This document shows, piece by piece, positions 13,824 to 25,502 of a stretch of DNA of 64,000 nucleotides. Positions within the stretch are counted from its first letter, which is position 1, and each line of letters begins with the position of its first letter. The stretch is from Modestobacter italicus. Its GTDB lineage: Bacteria > Actinomycetota > Actinomycetes > Mycobacteriales > Geodermatophilaceae. The stretch is from assembly GCF_000306785.1 (NCBI RefSeq), contig NC_017955.1, forward strand, positions 124,001-188,000, read 5' to 3'. The notes under the pieces are model-generated. The model was not told the origin of the DNA. It worked only from the letters and a program-made list of their open reading frames with translations, and did no database searches. The position numbers and the translations under genes are program-made.

Positions 13824-16661
13824 TCAGCCGGCGAAGACGCCCGCCAGGTGCTCCCGCAGCACGGCGTCGGTCACCGGCCGGGTGCGGAGGCCGACGTGCC
13901 CGTCGGGCCGCACCAGGTACGCCGCCGTCCCGGTGTCCGGGACGCCGTAGGCGGCGGCGAAGCCGCCCTGCGCGTCGCGGACGACCGGCAGGTCGACCAG
14001 CGGCGGCACGGTCGCGCCGGGAGCCGCGACCAGGTACGGGTGCACCTGGCCCTGGGTCGCCTGCCGGACCGACGCGGCCAGCTTCTCCAGCCCCGCCAGG
14101 TCCTCCTCCCCGACCCCGGCGCCGGCGTAGAGCAGCAGGGTGGCGTGCGTCCCGCGGGTCAGGTCGAACAGCCGGACGTCGTGGGCGACGCCGAAGCGGC
14201 GCAGCCCCTGCACGTCCGGCGCCCGGTACCCGGGCTCCGGCCCGCCGGCGAAGCCCTCGGCATCGGTCACCTCACCGACCAGCGGGCTCCCGGCGTAGTT
14301 CATCGTCATCTGCATCTCCAGCAGGAACTGCGCCTTCTCGTCCTCCATGTCCATCTCGTCGGTGAACGCGATGGCGACGGCGCGGTCGACGATGGCCTTG
14401 CCCGCCGGACGGCGCTCGGCGTCGTAGCTGTCGAGCAGGCCCGGTGCGGCCAGCCCCCGGACGGCGAGCGCCAGCTTCCAGCCGAGGTTCCAGGCGTCCT
14501 GGATGCCGGTGTTCATGCCCTGCCCGCCGGCCGGCGGGTGCAGGTGCGCGGCGTCCCCGGCGACGAACACCCGGCCCTCCCGGTACCGGTCGACGATCCC
14601 GTGCTTGACCCGGAAGATCGACGACCAGCGCAGGTTGCTCGCCGTCGTGCCCGCCGGCCCCACGTCGTCGATCGCCGCCTGGATGTCGGCCAGCGTCGGT
14701 GGCGTGTACTCCTGCCAGAAGCCGGGCGGCACCACGCCGGAGCCGATCGTCTTCTGCAGCGGCTCGGGGGCCAGCGTCGCGATCCGGTAGCGGTTGCGGC
14801 CCTTGAGCGGGACGCAGACCAGCATGCCGGTGAACGCGCCGTCGTCCTCGATCCGCACCCAGCGCAGCAGGTGACCGGGCGGCATGTCCCAGTCGACGTC
14901 GACGTCGCCCAGCATGAACAGCTGCGGGAACATCGACACCCCGCCCACGAAGTCCAGCCCCAGCCCGGCCCGGACGACGCTGTGCGCGCCGTCGCAGCCG
15001 ACCAGGTACTGCGCCCGGGTGGTCTCGGTCTCCCCGGAGGGGAGCCGCAGCTGCGCGGTGACCCCGTCGTCGTCCTGGGTGAACCCGACCAGCTCCACCC
15101 CGCGCTCGACGGCGACGCCGTGCGAGAGCAGCTTGGCGGTGAGCAGCCGCTCGGTGTCGTACTGGGGGAGCCCGAGGTGGGCGTAGGGGAGCTCGTCGAG
15201 GCCGGCCCAGTCGACCTGGTGGGTCTGCTTGCCGTTGACGAACACCGTCTGCCCGTGCAGCCAGATCCCGGCGTCCATCGCCTCGGCGACGATGCCCTGG
15301 TCCTCCCAGATCTCCATCGTCCGGCAGTGGATGCCGATCGCCTTGTCCGCCTGGGAGGCCGCCTGCGCCCGCTTGTCGACGACCCGGACGGCGATGCCGC
15401 GGCGGGCCAGCTCCAGGGCGTGGGTGAGCCCGGCCGGGCCGGCGCCGGCCACCAGCACCTCGACGTCCCCGCCGACGGCTCGCGACGCGGCCGCCACCGG
15501 GACCGGGGCGGCGGCGTGCTGGGCACCCGGCGCCTCGACGAACTCCTGCACCGGCGCGCTGGGCACCGGCGCCGGCTCGACCGGGGCGGACACCCGCGGC
15601 GGCGGCGCCGGCGCGGCGGCCGCCACCGGCTGCGGGGCGGGGGCCCCGGCCGCCGGCGCGGGGAGCGGCCAGCGGCCGCCGTCGGCGTCCACGGGCCGGT
15701 AGCGGATCTCGAAGTGCTGGCGGGAGAACTCGACCGACAGCCAGCGGATCAGCGCCGAGCTCTGGTCGGCGTGCGAGGGGTCGTCGACCCAGCGGACGAA
15801 GTCCTGCTCGGACTCCCACTCGGCGAAGATGTGGTACCTGGGCTCGCCGATCTCCTTGAGCAGCTCCTCCCGGATCAGCCCCGGGGTGCCCTTCAGGGCG
15901 GCGGTCGTCTTCGCGTAGGCCGCCTCGAAGGCCTCCTCCTCGCCCGCCTCGACCCGGGTGCTGATGTCGATCCGGACGTGCGGTCGCGTCGTCGGCTCCA
16001 CCGACCCGCCGCCGGCGTCCTCCGGGCGGTACCGGATCTCGAAGTGCTGGCGGGAGAACTCCACCGACAGCCAGCGGATCAGCGCCGCGCTCTGGTCGGC
16101 GTGGGAGGGGTCGTCGACCCAGCGGACGAAGTCCTGCTCGGACTCCCACTCGGCGAAGATGTGGTACCTGGGCTCGCCGATCTCCTTGAGCAGCTCCTCG
16201 CGGATCAGCCCCGGGGTGCCCTTGAGGGCGGCGGTGGTCTTCGCGTAGGCGGCCTCGAAGGCCTCCTCCTGCCCCTCCTCGACCCGGGTGCTGATGTCGA
16301 TCCGCACGTGCGGCGGCCGGCCGTCGTCGGCGGGCTGCCCGCCGGCCACGGTGTGCAGCAGCTCGTAGGTGCTGCGCGAGGCGTCCTCCCGGAGCTCCCG
16401 CAGCGCCTCGGTGAGCGTCTCCCGGGCGCTGCTGCGGCCGAACGCGTCGACCGCCGCCCGGTCGACCCAGTCGCTGGTGATCACGAAGGTGCGCGGGTCG
16501 TCGGCGTCGCGGACGAGCTCCTGCCGCAGGTTGCCGGGGACCTTGCTGATCTCCACCGCCGCCCGCCGCCAGCTCTGCTCGAACTCCGCCTCGCACCCCT
16601 CCCGGGTGCGCATCCGCAGCAGGGTGCGCACCACCGGGGTCTTCTCCTCCGCTGCGGTCAT
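13824..16661 (-). CDS. Triple ABM-domain / FAD aromatic hydroxylase fusion
   Basis: A 945-aa protein with an unusual architecture. Residues about 9-105, 117-215 and 227-325 are three antibiotic-biosynthesis-monooxygenase (ABM) ferredoxin-like domains; the last two are almost identical. A Pro/Ala-rich linker (about 326-397) leads to an FAD-dependent hydroxylase with GAGPAG (406-411), the NAD(P)H/FAD motif LVGCDGAHS and GRVFVAGDAAHLHP (about 700), ending in a thioredoxin-like C-terminal domain as in phenol-type hydroxylases. ABM proteins oxidise polyketide quinones without cofactor, while the FAD part hydroxylates aromatic rings, so this is probably a tailoring enzyme of the pigment. ATG 16661 overlaps the preceding gene by 4 bp. 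It is the last gene of the operon. Confidence 0.88.
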   Translation of the reverse strand: MTAAEEKTPVVRTLLRMRTREGCEAEFEQSWRRAAVEISKVPGNLRQELVRDADDPRTFVITSDWVDRAAVDAFGRSSARETLTEALRELREDASRSTYELLHTVAGGQPADDGRPPHVRIDISTRVEEGQEEAFEAAYAKTTAALKGTPGLIREELLKEIGEPRYHIFAEWESEQDFVRWVDDPSHADQSAALIRWLSVEFSRQHFEIRYRPEDAGGGSVEPTTRPHVRIDISTRVEAGEEEAFEAAYAKTTAALKGTPGLIREELLKEIGEPRYHIFAEWESEQDFVRWVDDPSHADQSSALIRWLSVEFSRQHFEIRYRPVDADGGRWPLPAPAAGAPAPQPVAAAAPAPPPRVSAPVEPAPVPSAPVQEFVEAPGAQHAAAPVPVAAASRAVGGDVEVLVAGAGPAGLTHALELARRGIAVRVVDKRAQAASQADKAIGIHCRTMEIWEDQGIVAEAMDAGIWLHGQTVFVNGKQTHQVDWAGLDELPYAHLGLPQYDTERLLTAKLLSHGVAVERGVELVGFTQDDDGVTAQLRLPSGETETTRAQYLVGCDGAHSVVRAGLGLDFVGGVSMFPQLFMLGDVDVDWDMPPGHLLRWVRIEDDGAFTGMLVCVPLKGRNRYRIATLAPEPLQKTIGSGVVPPGFWQEYTPPTLADIQAAIDDVGPAGTTASNLRWSSIFRVKHGIVDRYREGRVFVAGDAAHLHPPAGGQGMNTGIQDAWNLGWKLALAVRGLAAPGLLDSYDAERRPAGKAIVDRAVAIAFTDEMDMEDEKAQFLLEMQMTMNYAGSPLVGEVTDAEGFAGGPEPGYRAPDVQGLRRFGVAHDVRLFDLTRGTHATLLLYAGAGVGEEDLAGLEKLAASVRQATQGQVHPYLVAAPGATVPPLVDLPVVRDAQGGFAAAYGVPDTGTAAYLVRPDGHVGLRTRPVTDAVLREHLAGVFAG
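15687..16313 (-). repeat. Tandem duplication encoding two near-identical ABM domains
   Basis: Segments 16017-16313 and 15687-15983 encode ABM domains 2 and 3 with a 330-bp period. The encoded proteins differ at only a few residues (for example EEGQEE versus EAGEEE, SAAL versus SSAL), and long DNA stretches are identical. This points to recent duplication or gene conversion, while ABM domain 1 is clearly diverged. Confidence 0.9.
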
Positions 16662-17896
16662 GCCGCCCGCTCCTCGTGTCGGCGCAGCACCAGGCTGCTG
16701 TTGAAGCCCCCGAAGCCGCGGGCGAGGACGACGACGGTCCCGACGTCCTGCACCCGGCTCTGCTGCACGAGGTCCACGCCCGGCGCGTCGACCGGGTCGT
16801 CGAGGTTCGCGGTGCCGGGCACGATGCCGTCCCGGATCGCCAGCAGCGCGGTCGCCACGTTCAGCGCCGAGCCCCCGGCCATCAGCCGCCCGGACCAGGA
16901 CGACGGCGCCGTCACCGGCACCGGTGTGGCCCGCTGACCGAACACCCGCTGCAGCGCCTCGAGCTCCAGCGCGTCCAGCTCCGGCAGCCCGGCCCCGTCG
17001 GCCAGGACCAGGTCGACGTCGTCCGGGGTGAGCCCGGCGTCGGCCAGGGAGAGCCGGATCGCGCGGGCGTACTGGGTGGCGTCGGGGGCGGGGTCCTCGT
17101 GGTGGTGGGCGTCGTGCGTGGCGCCGTAGCCGACGACCTCGCCCCACACGTGCCGGGCGCCGCGGGCCCGGGCGGCGCCGGGCTCCTCCAGCAGCAGGAT
17201 CGCGCCGCCCTCGCCGATCACGTGCCCGTTCGCCCGGCGGTCGAAGGGCTTGTAGGCGTCCTCGGGCCGGGTCGCCGTCGACAGCCGGCCGCTGGTCGCC
17301 TGGCACAGCAGGGCGTACGGCGTCACGCCGGCCTCGGTGCCCCCGACCAGGACGGCGGGCGTGCCGCGGCGGGCGACCCGGCGGGCCCAGCCGATGCTGT
17401 CCAGGCCACCGGCGCCCTCGCTGACCACCACGCCGGAGGGGCCCTTGTAGCCGTCCCGGATGGAGAGCTGGCCGGTGCTGGCCGCGTAGAACCAGGCGAT
17501 CGACTGGTAGGCGCCGACCGACTTCGGCCCCTTCGCCCACAGCCCCTGGATCTCGTGCTGGCTGAACTCGTTGCCACCGGAACCGGCGGCCAGGAAGACC
17601 GAGGTCGCGTAGGCGTCCTCGGGGGCCTCGTAGCCGGCGTCCTGCGCGGCCAGCGTGGCGGCCGCCAGCGACGTCCAGGTCCAGCGGTCGGTCTGCACCA
17701 TCAGCTGCGGCGCGACGAACGCCTTCGGGTCGAAGTCGCGGATCTGGCCGGCCAGCGTCACCCCGTACTGGTCGGTGTCGAAGCCCTCGATCGGCCGGAT
17801 GGCCGGCTCCCCGCGGACGAGGGAGGACCAGTGCGCCTCCACCCCCACGCCGGTGGGCGCGACGACGCCGATCCCGGTCACCAGCAGGCCGGTCAT
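16658..17896 (-). CDS. Type II PKS chain-length factor (KS beta)
   Basis: A 412-aa ketosynthase-fold protein lacking the active-site Cys, which defines it as the chain-length factor that pairs with KS alpha. At the Cys position the sequence reads [11 protein letters not shown], so residue 161 is Gly. Most chain-length factors have Gln there (A-E-Q-A-G-G). The rest of the thiolase fold ([27 protein letters not shown]) is intact. It should set polyketide length with KS alpha. The start overlaps the KS alpha stop by 4 bp (ATGA), consistent with equal translation of the heterodimer. Confidence 0.92.
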
Positions 17897-19188
17897 GCGG
17901 TCCTCCTCGTCGGGGACGCCAGCACGATCGCCGACTGGAAGCCGCCGAAGCCGCTGCCCACCGACAGTGCGACGTCCACCTTCTGCTCGCGGGCGGTGTT
18001 GGGCACGTAGTCCAGGTCGCACTCCGGGTCGGGCACCCCGTAGTTGGCCGTCGGCGGCACCACGCCGCGCTTGACCGCCAGCGCGGTGGCGGCGATCTCG
18101 ATCGACCCGATCGCGCCGAGGGAGTGGCCGACCATCGACTTGATCGAGCTCATCGACACCCGCTGGGCGGTCGGGCCCAGGCTGCGCTTCACCGCGGCGG
18201 TCTCGTGGCGGTCGTTCTGCTTCGTGCCCGAGCCGTGCGCGTTGACGTAGCCCACCTCGTCCGGGTCGATCCGGCCCTGGTCCAGCGCCAGCCCGATGGC
18301 CTCGGCCATCTCGATGCCGTCGGGCCGCAGACCGGTCATGTGGAAGGCGTTGCAGCGGTTGGCGTAGCCGCTGACCTCGCAGTACACCTCCGCGCCCCGC
18401 TGCCGGGCGTGCTCGAGCTCCTCGAGCACCAGCACCGCGGCGCCCTCGCCCATGACGAAGCCGTCCCGGCGGGCGTCGAAGGGCTTGGAGGCGTGCTCGG
18501 GGTCGGCGTTGTTGGCCGTCGTGGCCCGGATGGTGTCGAAGCAGGCCATCGAGATCGGGGAGATCGGCGCGTCGCTGGCCCCGGCGATCACCACGTCGGC
18601 GTCGCCGTCCTCGATCAGCTGGGCGCCGTAGCCGACCGCGTCGATGCCCGAGGTGCAGCCGGTGGAGACCACCGTGGCCGGCCCGTGGGCGCCGAAGCGC
18701 ACCGCCAGCTCGGTGGCCCCGCAGCTGGGCACCAGCGCCTGGTGCAGGAACCGCGTGGCGTACCGCGGGTCGACCAGCCAGTGCTTGCCCGCGTCGCTGA
18801 CCGCGACGTACTCGTTCTCCAGCCGCATGGTCGCCCCGACCGCGCTGCCGAGGGTCACCCCGACCCGGTCCGGGTCCGGTGCGTCGTCCGCGCCGCCGGC
18901 CCCGAACGTCAGCCCGCTGTCGGCGACGGCCTCGTCGGCGGCGACCATCGCCATCTGCACGAACCGGTCGTTGCGGTGCACCTCGTGGGCGGTCAGGCCC
19001 AGCTTGCGCCCGTCGAAGTCGACCTCGGCCGCCACCTGCGACCGGAAGCGGCTCGGGTCGAAGAAGGTGATCCGCCGGGTCGCCGTCCGGCCGGCGGTGA
19101 TCATGTCCCAGAAGCCCTCGCGGCCCATCGAGCCGGGGGCGACCACGCCGATGCCGGTGATGACCACCCGGCGCCCGCCGGCGGTCAC
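17893..19188 (-). CDS. Type II PKS ketosynthase (KS alpha)
   Basis: A 431-aa beta-ketoacyl synthase with a full catalytic set: Cys178 in [14 protein letters not shown], His in [14 protein letters not shown] and His in [15 protein letters not shown]. It condenses malonyl units on the ACP, paired with the chain-length factor encoded next. Sequence and gene order (cupin, KS alpha, KS beta) resemble whiE spore-pigment clusters of actinomycetes. GTG 19188 overlaps the cupin stop by 4 bp. Confidence 0.93.
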
Positions 19189-19616
19189 CGGACGCCCATC
19201 GAGCCCGGCGAGGGCTCGGTGTCGACGTGGCCCAGCTCCGGCCGGGGGGCCAGCGGGCCGGCGAGGAAGACGAAGAACGCCTGCTCCGCGGTGTCGTTGA
19301 CGATCCGGTGCCGCACCCCGATCGGGATGTGCACCGCCTGCTCACCGCCCAGCCGGCGCTCCTCGCCGTCCAGGGTCACCAGCACCTCGCCGGAGACGCA
19401 GTAGAGGAACTCCTCCGAGTACGGGTGCCAGTGCTCGGTGACGACCTCCCCCGGCTCGAGGGTGAGCGTGCCCATGAACCCGGCGGTGGCACCCACGCTG
19501 GTCGGCGAGAGCAGCACCCGGATGTCACCGCCGCGGCGGCGGTTGGGGGCCGCGTCGGCCCGCGACACGGTGGGCCCGCAGCGCACCTTCGCCGTGGGGT
19601 GCTGGATCGTCGTCAT
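19185..19616 (-). CDS. Cupin protein of the polyketide pigment cluster
   Basis: A 143-aa single-domain cupin. The two cupin motifs are visible: [20 protein letters not shown] (metal-ligand His, His, Glu) and [15 protein letters not shown]. WhiE ORFII and CurC-type cupins hold this place in spore-pigment clusters, and their chemical role is not settled. ATG 19616 overlaps the acyltransferase stop by 4 bp. It is probably a metal-binding protein acting on the polyketide or stabilising the synthase. Confidence 0.87.
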
Positions 19617-20581
19617 CTCTCTCCTCCGGTGGGGGCCGGACCCGTCAGCTCGGGTTCCGGGAGTGCGATGGGGGTCAGCGCACCGGGCGCGGTGGCCAGG
19701 TGCAGCGGGAGGTCCGGGTGGACCTGGCGGATCAGCGGGCCGAGGGTGGGCACCGGGCCCACCTCGACGACCCAGGTGGCACCGGCCCCGACCAGCGCCC
19801 GCGAGGTGGTCTCCCACTGCACCGGCGAGGTCAGGTGCGCCCGCAGGCACCGGGCCAGGTGGTCCGGGTCGCGGGTCGGCCGGCCGTCGGCGTTGGGCAC
19901 CACCGGGACGTCCGGGACGGACCAGTCCAGGTCGGCCAGCGGTGCGGCGAGGTGGTCGGCGACCGACTGCATCAGCGGGCCGTGGCAGGCGGCCCGCCCG
20001 CGGAGCCGGACCATGTCCAGCCCGGCCGCGGTGACCGCCGTCCGGGCCTGCTCGAGCTCCTCCCGGCTGCCCGACAGCACCACCTGCGCCGGGCCGTCGA
20101 GGGAGGCGATGCTCAGCCCGCCGGCCGGCAGCCCGGTGACCACCGAGCGGGCGACCTCGGCGGCACCCGGCCCGACGACGGCCGCCATGCCCGCGCACGA
20201 GGGCCGCGGCGCGTGCGCCAGCGCCTCCGCGCGCCAGTCGACGAACGCCACCACCTGCTCCAGCGGCAGCGCGCCCGCGGCCACCAGCGCCGCGTACTCG
20301 CCGACGCCGTGCCCGGCGACGACCACCGGCTGCAGGCCTGCCGCGGTGAGGCTGCGGTAGCCCGCGACCCCGGTGACCACCGTCGTCAGGTGCGCGGCCA
20401 CCGGGTCGCAGAGGTTGAGCGGGTCGCCCCACCACGGGACGACGTCGCGGCCGAGCACGTCGGAGGCCTCGGCGACGACGTCGCGGGCGGCCGCGTCGCC
20501 GAGCCAGGCGTCCAGGGCGTGCGGGCGGGCGCTGTCCTCACCCGGGAGGACGACGGCGGCCCCCGGGGCGAGGGCGGTCAC
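19613..20581 (-). CDS. Malonyl-CoA acyltransferase-like protein lacking the catalytic Ser
   Basis: A 322-aa FabD/AT-fold protein. The nucleophile elbow, normally G-H-S-x-G-E, reads GHGVGEY, so Gly92 replaces the catalytic Ser (codon GGC). The conserved His200 is retained in ACHGPLM, and WRAEA keeps an Arg in the region that binds the malonyl carboxylate. A classical acyl-enzyme cannot form. It may be a non-catalytic partner, or a decayed MAT replaced by the fatty-acid synthase enzyme. GTG 20581 overlaps the cyclase stop by 4 bp. Confidence 0.85.
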   Translation of the reverse strand: MTALAPGAAVVLPGEDSARPHALDAWLGDAAARDVVAEASDVLGRDVVPWWGDPLNLCDPVAAHLTTVVTGVAGYRSLTAAGLQPVVVAGHGVGEYAALVAAGALPLEQVVAFVDWRAEALAHAPRPSCAGMAAVVGPGAAEVARSVVTGLPAGGLSIASLDGPAQVVLSGSREELEQARTAVTAAGLDMVRLRGRAACHGPLMQSVADHLAAPLADLDWSVPDVPVVPNADGRPTRDPDHLARCLRAHLTSPVQWETTSRALVGAGATWVVEVGPVPTLGPLIRQVHPDLPLHLATAPGALTPIALPEPELTGPAPTGGER

Positions 20582-21072
20582 GTCGTCGGCTCCGCGCGCC
20601 CGGCGGCGGCCTCCACCTTGTCCCGGATGACGGCCATCTGGACCTTGCTGTTGGCGTCGATGCGCTCGGTCATGCCGGCGGTGTCGATCGGTGCCTCCGG
20701 CCGCATCCGGAAGTCCTGCTGCCAGCGCATCCGGGTGCCGGTGCCCTCCGGCGTGTAGTTCCACCGGATGTCCATGAACTCGAACGGGCCGGGCTCGACC
20801 CGCTTGGCCACGACCTCGTGCGCGGCCTCGTCGAGGGTGCGCTCGGAGATCCAGCTCCACACCCGGCCGGACTCGTCCGGGTGCATCTTGAGCCGGAAGC
20901 GGAACGTCGAGCCGTGCTGGGCCAGCACCTCCACCTCGGCGTACTCGGTGAAGAGGTCCGGCCAGGACGGCAGGTCGTTGGTCATCCGCCAGACGTGGTC
21001 GATGTCCGCGTCGATGAAGATCGAGTTGTCGGTGTGGCCGACGGTGCGGCTGTCGTTCTCGAGGGTGCTCAC
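20578..21072 (-). CDS. Polyketide cyclase/aromatase, SRPBCC (WhiE-VI-like)
   Basis: A 164-aa single START/SRPBCC domain (DNSIFIDADIDHVWRMTNDL, PSWPDLFTEYAEVEVL) of the TcmN/WhiE-VI aromatase-cyclase group. It shapes the first ring closure of the poly-beta-ketone in the hydrophobic pocket. GTG 21072 has GGAGGA 7 nt upstream. It lies between the carboxylase-ACP gene and the acyltransferase in the operon. Confidence 0.88.
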   Translation of the reverse strand: MSTLENDSRTVGHTDNSIFIDADIDHVWRMTNDLPSWPDLFTEYAEVEVLAQHGSTFRFRLKMHPDESGRVWSWISERTLDEAAHEVVAKRVEPGPFEFMDIRWNYTPEGTGTRMRWQQDFRMRPEAPIDTAGMTERIDANSKVQMAVIRDKVEAAAGRAEPTT

Positions 21073-21131: not shown

Positions 21132-22871
21132 TCAGGCCATCTGCGACTGCGCCGAGGAGACGGTCGCGACGATCTCGCCGAGCGTGTAGCGGTCCGGGTC
21201 GTCGTCGGGCATCTCGGTGCCGAAGCGGTCGTGCAGCTCGGTCTGCATGGACAGGAAGGCCAGCGAGTCCAGGCCGATGTCGGCGAAGTGGGCGTCGGGG
21301 TCGGTGGTGCGCGACTCCGGCGGGAGCCCGGCCTTCTCGGAGAGCAGGTCCATCAGGTCGTCGAGGGTGAACGGGGTGTCGGGCATGGCGGTGTTCCCTT
21401 CATCGGTGGGTGGACGGGACGACCCCGACCGGTCGCTGCCGGGTGCGGGGACGAGCTGGAGCGGCCCGTGGGCGGCGGGCATGGGCGCCGCCGGGGACGC
21501 GGTCAGGGCAGCTGCGGAGGCCAGGAGCTCGGGCAGGCTGCGGTCGAGGAACTCGATGTCGTGCCGGTCGGCGCGCACGTCGGGGTGCCGGAGCATCGCG
21601 CGCTGCAGCGCGATGGTGGTGTGCAGCGCCGGCCCCTCGACCCGCAGCTCGGCCAGCGCCCGGTCCATCCGCCGGACGGCCTGGTCGCGGTCGGGGGCCC
21701 AGACGACGAGCTTGCCCAGCAGCGAGTCGTAGTGCGGGCTCACGTCGTCGCCCTGGCGGTAGCCGGTGTCGAACCGGGTCCACGGCCCGCCGGGGACCTG
21801 CAGGACGTCGAGGTGGCCGGGTGCCGGGGCGAAGCCGCGGGCCGGGTCCTCGGCGTTGATCCGGCACTCGATCGCCGCGCCGCGGGTCACCACGTCCTCC
21901 TGCTGCAGGTGCAGCCGCCGGCCGCCGGCGACCAGCAGCTGCTCCCGGACGAGGTCGACCCCGGTGAGCAGCTCGGTGACCGGGTGCTCGACCTGGATGC
22001 GGGCGTTCATCTCCATGAAGTACGCGCCGGCGTCGTCGACCAGGAACTCCATGGTCCCGGCGCCGGTGAACCCCACCGACAGCGCGCCGCGCACGGCCAG
22101 GGCACCGAGGTCGGCGCGCTGCTCGGGGGTCAGGTGGGCGGCCGGCCCCTCCTCCAGCAGCTTCTGGTGGCGGCGCTGCAGCGAGCAGTCGCGCTCGCCG
22201 AGGTGGATCCCGGCGCCGTGCCCGTCGCAGAGCACCTGCACCTCCACGTGCCGGGCGCGGGTCAGGTAGCGCTCCACGTAGACGGCCGGGTCGCGGAACA
22301 CCGCGCGGGCGACCGCACGGGTGGCGGTGAAGGCCTCGGCGAACTCCTCCGGCGCGTGGACGACGGTCATCCCGCGCCCACCACCCCCGGCGGCCGCCTT
22401 GATGATCACCGGGTAGCCGATCTCGTCGGCGATGGCCCGGCCCTCCTCCGCCGTCCGGACCGGCTCGACCACCCCGGGCAGCAGCGGCAGGCCGGCCTCG
22501 GCCATCAGCCGGCGGGCGGTGGCCTTGTTGCCCATCTGCTGCATGACCTCCGGCGGCGGGCCGACGAAGGTGAGCCCCTCGATGTCGCAGATCTCGGCGA
22601 AGTCGGGGTCCTCGGAGAGGAACCCGTAGCCGGGGTGGACGGCGTCGGCGCCGGTGCGCAGCGCGGCCTCGATCAGGTTCGGCACGTGCAGGTAGCTGCG
22701 CCGCGGGGCGGGCGGGCCGATGTGCACCGCCTCGTCGGCCATCGCCACGACGGCGGAGTCCCGGTCCGAGGTGGAGTACGTGGCGACGACCTCGATGCCC
22801 AGCTCCCGGCAGGCGCGCGCGATCCGGACGGCGATCTCGCCGCGGTTGGCGATGAGCAGCCGGCTGATCAC
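21132..22871 (-). CDS. Biotin carboxylase in one frame with an acyl carrier protein
   Basis: A single open frame of 579 codons. Residues 1 to about 445 form an AccC-type biotin carboxylase (LLIANRGEIAVRIARAC, ATP-grasp AAAGGGGRGM at 159-168, EMNARIQVEHPVTE), which carboxylates biotin using ATP and bicarbonate. After a Pro/Ser-rich stretch, residues 496-579 form an ACP with the phosphopantetheine site IGLDSLAF (Ser536). No stop codon separates them. ATG 21386 with AAGGGA about 9 nt upstream could also start a free 84-aa ACP, so the product may be a fusion, separate proteins, or both. GTG 22871 overlaps the BCCP stop by 4 bp. Confidence 0.88.
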   Translation of the reverse strand: MISRLLIANRGEIAVRIARACRELGIEVVATYSTSDRDSAVVAMADEAVHIGPPAPRRSYLHVPNLIEAALRTGADAVHPGYGFLSEDPDFAEICDIEGLTFVGPPPEVMQQMGNKATARRLMAEAGLPLLPGVVEPVRTAEEGRAIADEIGYPVIIKAAAGGGGRGMTVVHAPEEFAEAFTATRAVARAVFRDPAVYVERYLTRARHVEVQVLCDGHGAGIHLGERDCSLQRRHQKLLEEGPAAHLTPEQRADLGALAVRGALSVGFTGAGTMEFLVDDAGAYFMEMNARIQVEHPVTELLTGVDLVREQLLVAGGRRLHLQQEDVVTRGAAIECRINAEDPARGFAPAPGHLDVLQVPGGPWTRFDTGYRQGDDVSPHYDSLLGKLVVWAPDRDQAVRRMDRALAELRVEGPALHTTIALQRAMLRHPDVRADRHDIEFLDRSLPELLASAAALTASPAAPMPAAHGPLQLVPAPGSDRSGSSRPPTDEGNTAMPDTPFTLDDLMDLLSEKAGLPPESRTTDPDAHFADIGLDSLAFLSMQTELHDRFGTEMPDDDPDRYTLGEIVATVSSAQSQMA

Positions 22872-23395
22872 TGCCCGGCCCCCGTCGGGCGCAGGTACAT
22901 CAGCACCTGCCCGTACTCCACCGACTCGGCGTCGCCGACCAGGACCTCGGTGACGACGCCCGGCTCGTCGGCCACGATCGGGTTCATCAGCTTCATCGCC
23001 TCGACGATGCCGAGCGTCTGGCCGGCCTCGACGGCGTCGCCGACCCGGACGAACGGGTCCGCGTCCGGTGACGGGGCGATGTAGAAGGTCCCGACCAGCG
23101 GCGCGGGGACGGCGACCACGTCGTCCGGGACGGCGGGTCCGTCGGCCTCGGGCCCGGTGTCCCGGCCGACCGGTGCGCGGTGCAGCGCACCGGAGCCCTC
23201 GCCGGCGGGCTGGTCCTCGGTGGCCCACTCGACCTCGATCGCGCTGTCCCCGCTGCGCACGGTCAGCCGGCGCAGCCCGCCGGGCAGGCTGCGGGCCAGC
23301 TCGACCACCTCGTCGCTCAGCGACCGGGTGGCGTCGTCCGAGGGCACCGGGGCTCCGCTCAGCGTGGGTCGGGGGGCGAACTCGCTCGGGTGCAC
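22868..23395 (-). CDS. accB: Biotin carboxyl carrier protein (AccB-like)
   Basis: A 175-aa BCCP. A variable N-terminus is followed by PAPLVGTFYIAPSPDADPFV, and the biotinyl domain contains the EAMKLMN motif whose Lys carries biotin. It transfers carboxyl groups between the biotin carboxylase and the carboxyltransferase of acetyl-CoA carboxylase. GTG 23395 is preferred because GGCGGGG lies about 8 nt upstream; GTG 23404 would overlap the AccDA stop by 7 bp. It is part of the set that supplies malonyl-CoA for the polyketide. Confidence 0.88.
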   Translation of the reverse strand: MHPSEFAPRPTLSGAPVPSDDATRSLSDEVVELARSLPGGLRRLTVRSGDSAIEVEWATEDQPAGEGSGALHRAPVGRDTGPEADGPAVPDDVVAVPAPLVGTFYIAPSPDADPFVRVGDAVEAGQTLGIVEAMKLMNPIVADEPGVVTEVLVGDAESVEYGQVLMYLRPTGAGQ

Positions 23396-23397
23396 GG

Positions 23398-25146
23398 TCA
23401 GCACCCCGCCGGGACGACGGGCTGCAGCGCACGCACCCGGCGACCGCCGTTGCCGTCCATGCCGGACAACCGGCGGGACCGCTCGGCCAGCAGGGTGGTC
23501 ACGTCGACCCGGGACAGCTCGTCCAGCTCGCGGAGGAGCGCGGCGCGGAGCAGGTCGGCCGCCGCCAGCGGGTCGGTGTGCGCACCGCCCGGTGGCTCGG
23601 GGACGACGGAGGTGGCGATGCCCGACCGGTACAGGTGCGGCGCGCCCAGCTGCATGGCCCGCGCCGCGGCGGGGGCCGCCGTCGCGGTCCGCCACAGGAT
23701 CGCCGCGCACCCCTCGGGGCTGATCACCGACAGGTAGGCGTTCTCCAGCACCAGCAGCCGGTCGGAGGTGCACAGCGCCAGCGCGCCGCCGGAGCCGCCC
23801 TCGCCGGTGACCACCGCGACGACCGGGACCCGCAGCCGGCTGCTGCGCATGATGATCTCGGCGATCGCGTGGGACTGCCCGCGCTCCTCCGCCTCCGGCC
23901 CCGGGTGCGCCCCGGGGGTGTCGACGAGGGTGACGACCGGCAGCCGGTGGTCCTCGGCGTGCCCGAGCAGGCGCAGCGCCTTGCGGTAGCCCTCCGGGTG
24001 CGGCATGCCGAAGTTGTGCGCCACCCGCTCGCGGACCGAGTGCCCCTTCTCGTGGCCGATCACCACCACCGGCCGGCCCCCGATCGAGGCCACCCCGCCC
24101 ACCACGGCGGGGTCGTCGCCGAAGGCCCGGTCGCCGTGCAGCTCGACGAAGTCGTCGAAGGCGGTGTGCAGGTAGTCCAGCGTCGTCGGCCGGTCCACGA
24201 CCCGCGCCCGCTGGACGACCTCCCACGGGTCGCGGTCCGCCGGCTGCGGCCCGGGCGCCGCGCCCCAGGTGTCCGCCCGCTCGTCCGCCGGCTCGTCCTC
24301 GGCCGGGACGCCGGCGGCCTGCCCTGCGTGCATCGCGAGCAGCCGGACGAGCACCGGCCGCAGGTCCGCCCGGCTCTCGACCCGGTCCACCAGGCCGTGG
24401 GCGAGGAGGAACTCCGAGGTCTGGAAGTCGTGGGGGAGCTCGGCGCGGATCGTCTCCTGCACCACCCGCGGACCGGCGAAGCCCACGTGCGCGCCGCGCT
24501 CGCCGATGAGCACCGAGGCCAGGGTCGCGAAGGAGGCGGACACCCCGCCGTAGGTGGGGTCGGTGAGCACGCAGACCGAGAGCAGGCCGGCCTCCCTCAG
24601 CCGTCCGAAGGCCTCGCTGGCGCGGGCCATCTGGAACAGCGAGAAGACGCCCTCCTGCATCCGGGCGCCGCCGCTGGCGCAGACGACCACCAGCGGCCGG
24701 CCCTGCTCCAGGGCCAGCGCGGCCGCCTCGCTCACCCGCCGGCCGACCTCGACGCCCATGCTGCCGCCCAGGAAGCCGAAGTCCATGACGGCGAGGACCA
24801 GCGGGATCCCGCCGATCCGCGCCTCGCCCACCAGCACCGCCTCGGACTCACCGGAGCGGTGCGCGGCGTCGCGGAGCCGGTCGGGGTAGGGGCGCAGGTC
24901 GGTGAAGGACAGCGGGTCGGAGTCCCCGCGGGTCACGTTGGTCTCGGTGAAGCTGCCGGGGTCGACCAGCATGTCGATCCGGGCGCGGGCGCCCAGCCGC
25001 AGGTGGTGCTCGCACTCCGGGCAGACGTGCAGGTTGCGCTCCAGCCGCTTGTGGTAGAGCAGCCAGCCGCAGGCCGGGCAGGAGGTCCAGCCCGTGTGCA
25101 CCGGCGGGGCGGGGACCCCGGGTGTGGTCAACGAGGAACGGGTCAT
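23398..25146 (-). CDS. Fused acetyl-CoA carboxylase carboxyltransferase beta-alpha (AccD-AccA)
   Basis: A 582-aa fusion. The N-terminal half is AccD-like, with a four-Cys zinc finger (C-P-A-C at about 23 and C-P-E-C at about 42) and GGARMQEGVFSLFQMAR. The C-terminal half is AccA-like, with LDYLHTAFDDFVELHGDRAF, DTPGAHPGPEAEERGQ and GEGGSGGALAL. It transfers the carboxyl group from biotin to acetyl-CoA. With the BCCP and biotin carboxylase that follow, it makes a complete acetyl-CoA carboxylase dedicated to this operon. ATG 25146 is a clear start. Confidence 0.9.
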   Translation of the reverse strand: MTRSSLTTPGVPAPPVHTGWTSCPACGWLLYHKRLERNLHVCPECEHHLRLGARARIDMLVDPGSFTETNVTRGDSDPLSFTDLRPYPDRLRDAAHRSGESEAVLVGEARIGGIPLVLAVMDFGFLGGSMGVEVGRRVSEAAALALEQGRPLVVVCASGGARMQEGVFSLFQMARASEAFGRLREAGLLSVCVLTDPTYGGVSASFATLASVLIGERGAHVGFAGPRVVQETIRAELPHDFQTSEFLLAHGLVDRVESRADLRPVLVRLLAMHAGQAAGVPAEDEPADERADTWGAAPGPQPADRDPWEVVQRARVVDRPTTLDYLHTAFDDFVELHGDRAFGDDPAVVGGVASIGGRPVVVIGHEKGHSVRERVAHNFGMPHPEGYRKALRLLGHAEDHRLPVVTLVDTPGAHPGPEAEERGQSHAIAEIIMRSSRLRVPVVAVVTGEGGSGGALALCTSDRLLVLENAYLSVISPEGCAAILWRTATAAPAAARAMQLGAPHLYRSGIATSVVPEPPGGAHTDPLAAADLLRAALLRELDELSRVDVTTLLAERSRRLSGMDGNGGRRVRALQPVVPAGC

Positions 25147-25175: not shown

Positions 25176-25502
25176 TCACTCGGGCGACGAGGTCCAGTGG
25201 TAGAAGCGGCGGGCCATCGCGTCCTGCGGTGAGCGCCAGTTGGGGTCGTAGGCCTCGATGTAGGGCTTGAGCTCCTCGCTCACCGACCGGAAGGCCGGCA
25301 GCGACTGCGCCACCTGCATCGACTCCGCCGGCGGGCGGTCGAAGCCGATCAGGTGCACGTAGAGGCCGTGGAACTGGAAGAGGGACCGGTGTCGCACCCC
25401 GATGTCGTGGGGCATGGACGTCGCGTCCGAGCGGCCGAAGACGGCGGCCACCTCGTCGGCGTCGCGGGGGTCCATCTTCGCGATGATCATGGTCTCGTGC
25501 AC
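25176..25502 (-). CDS. TcmI/WhiE-VII-type polyketide cyclase
   Basis: A 108-aa ferredoxin-like protein of the TcmI family (MIIAKMDPRDADEVAAVFGR, LFQFHGLYVHLIGFDRPPAE), which closes later rings of aromatic polyketides. GTG 25502 has AGGAG 6 nt upstream; the frame stays open to 25607 but that extension looks non-coding. It is the first gene of the leftward operon, so the operon promoter must lie upstream in 25503-25888. Confidence 0.88.
   Translation of the reverse strand: MHETMIIAKMDPRDADEVAAVFGRSDATSMPHDIGVRHRSLFQFHGLYVHLIGFDRPPAESMQVAQSLPAFRSVSEELKPYIEAYDPNWRSPQDAMARRFYHWTSSPE

Follow-up and report, generated by a model that had tools for sequence, protein, structure and literature searches.

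Organization of the locus

The window, meaning the whole stretch of 64,000 nucleotides of Modestobacter italicus DNA that was analysed, contains a reading frame in which a biotin carboxylase (BC) is joined to the acyl carrier protein (ACP) of a polyketide synthase (PKS). The features of the locus are listed in Table 1. This continuous frame had been reported in a preliminary description, whose coordinates are correct: translation from 22871 to 21132 proceeds without a stop over 579 aa. The strand, which was not stated there, is the minus strand. The internal ATG at 21386 (on the complement) and the AAGGGA upstream of it, at 21400-21395, were also confirmed. The protein comprises the Pfam domains Biotin_carb_N (residues 1-110), CPSase_L_D2 (116-321), Biotin_carb_C (335-443) and PP-binding (505-568). 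The chromosome carrying the fused frame is a single contig of 5,575,517 bases.

Table 1. Features of the BC-ACP locus, in positions of the window.
Feature	Positions	Strand	Basis and remarks
Fused ORF, BC - tail - ACP	21132..22871	minus	579 aa + TGA, no internal stop
BC part, residues 1-446	21534..22871	minus	start GTG at 22871; Pfam and NCBIfam models
Pro/Ala/Ser-rich tail, residues 447-495	21387..21533	minus	separate relatives carry a similar tail
SD-like AAGGGA of the internal ACP start	21395..21400	minus	SD-like motif in 36/36 loci
ACP, 84 aa, residues 496-579, internal ATG at 21386	21132..21386	minus	Pfam
Ser536 codon (DSL motif), predicted phosphopantetheine site	21264..21266	minus	invariant in 15 aligned fused proteins
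AccB (biotin carboxyl carrier)	22868..23404	minus	EAMKLMN by eye; BCCP model just below cut-off; start GTG 23404 predicted
AccDA, fused carboxyltransferase beta + alpha	23398..25146	minus	Pfam, NCBIfam
Polyketide cyclase (Cyclase_polyket)	25176..25490	minus	Pfam
Aromatase/cyclase (SRPBCC)	20578..21072	minus	Pfam; best solved relatives 3tvr, 3tl1, 2kf2, then TcmN
Malonyltransferase-like protein, GHG for the GHS nucleophile motif	19613..20581	minus	start GTG 20581 predicted
Cupin	19185..19616	minus	Pfam; start ATG 19616 predicted
Ketosynthase (KS) alpha	17893..19188	minus	Pfam; Cys in STGCTSG by eye
KS beta / chain-length factor	16658..17890	minus	Pfam; SEGAGG, no Cys, by eye; start not fixed

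All these genes lie on the same strand in the order polyketide cyclase, AccDA, AccB, BC-ACP, aromatase, malonyltransferase-like protein, cupin, KS alpha and KS beta. KS alpha, a Cys-less KS beta, ACP, SRPBCC aromatase, Cyclase_polyket and cupin were identified together, as in a whiE-like gene set; we take this to be the composition of whiE, and 3tvr and 3tl1 to be the whiE (spore-pigment) aromatase. Neighbouring genes overlap by GTGA at accB/BC (the TGA of AccB over the BC start) and at the junction of aromatase and malonyltransferase-like protein, and by ATGA between the latter and the cupin, so close coupling is usual in this cluster. The gap between ACP and aromatase is 59 bases. Beyond KS beta, no Pfam family was found in positions 14272-16596.

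Comparison with known families

The BC part presents the N, ATP-grasp and C domains of AccC in order and scores above the PRK08591 cut-off of NCBIfam (605.8 vs 597 bits), and below that of the accC equivalog TIGR00514 (593 vs 626.5 bits). It has the same three domains as AccC (PRK08591) over residues 1-446, and differs in carrying about 50 more tail residues and an ACP on the same chain. The ACP part contains a PP-binding domain, above the Pfam cut-off, with a modifiable serine, as in type II PKS ACPs; all NCBIfam ACP models were below cut-off. The PP-binding domain and the DSL serine are common to it and the free ACP of actinorhodin (2k0x/1af8), and in both cases KS alpha/beta and an aromatase adjoin, whereas only the window's ACP is joined in frame to BC. 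Among solved structures 4dxe is the closest by E-value and the actinorhodin ACP comes fourth. No stop precedes the ACP, yet a conserved SD-preceded internal start does.

A structure model of BC-ACP built with 15 close relatives reached a mean pLDDT of 47 and a pTM of 0.30, with the BC part poor. The ACP alone appears usable (ten-residue means of 73-89 from residue 501), and the tail is below 50 over residues 459-497. The model being too poor, no claim is made on the geometry or reach of the fusion.

Distribution in Geodermatophilaceae

A search of 112 genomes of the family identified a BC orthologue (E <= 1e-150) in 35, including the window's own genome. The ACP adjoins BC in all 35, being fused in 16 and separate in 19. 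Named genomes, scanned in addition, contributed 35 loci, with 28 from Geodermatophilaceae (14 fused, 14 separate); only L100 was new once duplicates were removed. The family set thus comprises 36 loci, 17 fused without a stop and 19 separate, and in each of them the ACP frame measures 130 aa or less. The fused state is represented in Modestobacter, Geodermatophilus, Blastococcus and Trujillonella. Genomes in the genus group of the window have a gene identical to that of named loci from Modestobacter excelsi, M. altitudinis and M. caceresii and from a Geodermatophilaceae strain, in keeping with placement of the window in Modestobacter. In every one of the 19 separate loci the ACP occupies frame 2 with respect to BC, which ends 1 to 64 nt past the beginning of the SD-preceded ACP start codon.

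The comparison with related genomes proposed in the preliminary description therefore recovered the stop-free frame in 17/36 loci, and it also settles the sequence error considered there. That a sequencing or assembly error joined two genes is rejected as next to impossible, given 16 further fused loci in other genomes and a chromosome in a single contig. The open frame was not accepted as evidence on its own, because unused frames stay open for hundreds of bases in this DNA: the third BC frame, used by none of the 36 loci, is open for a median of 771 nt when read into the ACP gene (32 loci, the other 4 having no stop within the sequence covered). What goes beyond chance, as far as the comparison of loci tells, is that the fused frame recurs in 17 of 36 orthologous loci and that the internal start is conserved.

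Internal start of the ACP

A four-base motif was counted as SD-like when it lay 5 to 14 nt before the ACP start codon, either ATG or GTG. Motif and start codon were identified in 36/36 family loci, the 17 fused ones included, against 64/892 in-frame ATG/GTG codons within BC (4/324 for ATG alone); in this comparison the 36 loci are related and their counts not independent, and the ACP start was picked in each locus among nearby ATG/GTG for having the motif, a choice that gives the test an advantage over the control. By these counts the locus has what is expected of a dual-product gene, a conserved internal ribosome-binding site with its start codon. Synonymous recoding retained the motif in <2.5% of draws for 11 of the 17 fused loci; in the remaining 6 a Glu-Glu pair dictates the motif, which hence is no evidence there. 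Since the SD-preceded start is conserved and not forced in those 11 loci, fused loci probably continue to make free ACP, and the suggestion in the preliminary description that a free ACP could also be produced is likely to be right.

The alternative is that the fusion is the sole product, with a relic internal start and an ACP that works as a domain of BC. The absence of a stop in 17 loci and the intact ACP serine agree with it, but motif and start are present in every fused locus, in 11 of them beyond the level forced by the protein, and the 19 relatives with separate genes produce a free ACP. We regard this alternative as quite improbable. Bacterial genes are known in which an internal in-frame start yields a second, shorter protein, Cas11b being an example (PMC11899642). 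The window's gene would likewise give a C-terminal product from within the longer frame; here it is predicted from the sequence, and the short product corresponds to a separate gene in sister species.

Tail of BC

Selection on the tail was estimated as dN/dS in 31 of the 36 loci (L014, L015, L039, L044 and L046 were left out). Values were 0.65, 0.48 and 0.24 in three groups of fused loci and 0.39, 0.45 and 0.59 in three of separate loci; for the same 31 loci the BC core gave 0.12-0.14 and the ACP 0.29-0.74. No stop was found in the tail before the ACP start in these 31 loci. The Pro/Ser-rich stretch had been described as joining the two parts; in 31/36 loci it is not specific to the fusion, and a dedicated linker is rejected because a tail of this kind, comparable in dN/dS, is also carried by separate BCs. 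On this comparison it is a weakly constrained BC tail.

BC and ACP outside the family

A sample of 397 genomes drawn evenly from the order gave 103 places outside the family at E <= 1e-140. The outgroup set comprises 102 of these (without G374; L186 ends with its contig) and four named BC loci, 106 in total. ACP was identified directly downstream of BC in 61 of them and not in the other 45, with a profile built mainly from family ACPs that would miss a very different ACP. In 60 of the 61 adjacent pairs the genes are not fused, by frame or by stop. The exception is L070 (G356), with a fused protein of about 534 aa whose ACP is 30% identical to the window's and whose internal ATG is preceded by GAGGAG. 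This BC-ACP fusion, with its unlike ACP, is independent of and unrelated to that of the family. The next ORF in L070 resembles a short-chain dehydrogenase by eye, perhaps indicating another pathway.

Two further outgroup loci have long BC frames. In L084 (G155) the BC frame has no stop before the ACP, yet the ACP is in another frame, and the locus was counted as not fused; its BC frame extends over 867 codons, crossing ACP-aromatase out of frame before it comes into frame with the cupin. In L191 (G142) it is open for 801 codons, far past the domain, with no ACP found downstream.

ACP and SRPBCC aromatase share one stop-free segment, ACP first, in 55/61 outgroup loci. This open frame is a second predicted kind of ACP fusion in related clusters. 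Such frames (L077, L081 and L084; also L068, L074 and L079) resemble the window in their neighbourhood and in having an ACP in frame with a neighbour, but here the join is from the C-terminus of the ACP to the aromatase with BC in another frame, whereas in the window BC is the joined partner.

No described BC-ACP fusion was found in the literature searched, which was mostly without subscription papers and included accessible parts of PMC10132072, PMC12664062, PMC4383371 and PMC7949117. Within those bounds the arrangement is, as the preliminary description had it, one not known from described PKS clusters. Type II PKSs are described as sets of proteins without covalent links (PMC12664062), and their ACP is mobile; here the ACP is in frame with BC in one family and with the aromatase in related clusters.

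Evolutionary history

The protein tree of BC contains three changes of state within the family, and four when the outgroups and L070 are included. The DNA tree contains two within the family and three with three separate outgroups; in it Modestobacter divides into a clade of the five fused loci (100/99) and one of the seven separate loci (85/94). The backbone of the family is without resolution in both trees. The AU test rejects a single clade of all separate loci (p 6.6e-5) as well as a single clade of all fused loci (p 2.8e-6). The most economical reading, though short of proof, is a single gain before the radiation of the family, the fusion being ancestral, followed by two losses. Against it, the protein tree needs three changes, not two, and the backbone lacks resolution in both trees.

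At least 17 changes in tail length were placed on the tree, 2 of them frame-changing; among fused loci 9/9 are in frame. If the three frames were equally tolerated, the in-frame bias would have p 4.5e-6 for all loci and 5e-5 for the fused ones. A comparison of in-frame with +1 changes only is fairer, because the +2 frame gives BC a long nonsense tail (the 771-nt median above), and there the bias is mild, about 0.03 in a hand calculation with 9 in-frame changes and 2 losses. Changes by whole codons may also be favoured by mutation.

A probable gene with two products

The reading we favour, and hold to be fairly probable, is a dual-output gene, with BC-ACP as the product of the first start and free ACP as that of the internal start. 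Initiation at GTG 22871 would yield BC, flexible tail and ACP in a single 579-aa chain, there being no stop between them, a step established at the level of the sequence; initiation at the SD-preceded ATG 21386, where start and motif are conserved, would yield the free 84-aa ACP. The latter would be the mobile carrier for ketosynthase, aromatase and cyclase, and the fused copy would place one ACP on every BC subunit, that is, on the carboxylase. The fusion would have arisen at a tightly coupled BC-ACP junction and, most simply, have been in place already in the ancestor of the Geodermatophilaceae clusters, after which two losses by frame change would have restored overlapping separate genes. 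The locus would then be an example of a gene fusion gained with its old internal start kept, and lost again.

Several observations point to two products: the stop-free frame in 17/36 loci, the SD-like start in 36/36, the serine unchanged across the 15 aligned fused proteins, the internal ATG with GAGGAG in the unrelated fusion of L070, the lack of fusion in 60/61 outgroup pairs, the history read from the trees and the 9/9 in-frame tail changes among fused loci. The motif uninformative in 6 of the 17 fused loci and a tail dN/dS alike in both states count against this reading.

Possible role of the fused copy

Given two products, the fusion could be an incidental by-product of translational coupling with the free ACP as the working one, which we consider possible. 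What would matter is that ribosomes translating BC reach the ACP start, and stopping soon after it (the offset state) or running on (the fused state) would be equivalent. This agrees with the 19/36 family loci that manage without fusion, with the BC ends just past the ACP start in all of them, coupling being common to both states, with the GTGA and ATGA overlaps elsewhere in the operon and with a tail constraint alike in fused and separate loci. However, equal tolerance of in-frame and +1 changes would make the observed 9 in-frame changes to 2 losses somewhat improbable (the value of about 0.03 above), and the near +1 stop is gone in 7/17 fused loci, as expected if the fused frame is used.

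The cluster's malonyltransferase-like protein (19613-20581) bears on a functional role. It presents GHG in place of a GHSxG motif with its nucleophile Ser, and its nearest models, mdcH and fabD, are below cut-off. Homologues were identified in 27 of the 28 named family loci, with GHG in 24, GYG in 2 (L100 and L113) and GHS in 1 (L108); the nucleophile Ser is absent in 26/27 and the aligned His is kept. None was found in L104, nor at that place in 7 outgroup loci. The protein is, by prediction, a conserved Ser-less pseudo-acyltransferase. The Ser-less transferase is present in both states, and a link with the fusion was therefore rejected.

A functional fusion, with the BC-tethered ACP sitting in the acetyl-CoA carboxylase (ACC) complex and charged there, seems doubtful to us. 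Charging would proceed by hand-over of newly made malonyl-CoA or by carboxylation of acetyl-ACP. BC only carboxylates biotin, and malonyl-CoA is made by the carboxyltransferase, here AccDA (23398-25146); the tether between malonyl-CoA synthesis and the carrier that the preliminary description proposed would therefore act through the complex of BC, BCCP and carboxyltransferase. The complete acc gene set beside the PKS genes, the retention of the fusion in Modestobacter, Geodermatophilus, Blastococcus and Trujillonella with length changes that are mostly in frame, and a malonyltransferase-like protein without its nucleophile Ser would suit such a role. Half of the loci do without fusion, however, the Ser-less transferase is found in fused and separate loci alike and is lacking in the 7 outgroup loci, BC itself does not handle malonyl-CoA, and a housekeeping FabD could load the ACP. 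It is unlikely, in our judgement, that in the ancestor of the Geodermatophilaceae clusters the ACP became a built-in ACC domain, with extender synthesis and carrier loading covalently joined beside a free ACP pool made from the internal start and the cluster's own malonyltransferase present only in Ser-less form.

The unfused sister species are natural controls, so the effect of tethering the ACP on flux is directly testable. Among them, the separate Modestobacter ACPs of L016, L018, L020 and L021 contain 15-nt N-terminal insertions which bring additional in-frame ATGs, two in L021.
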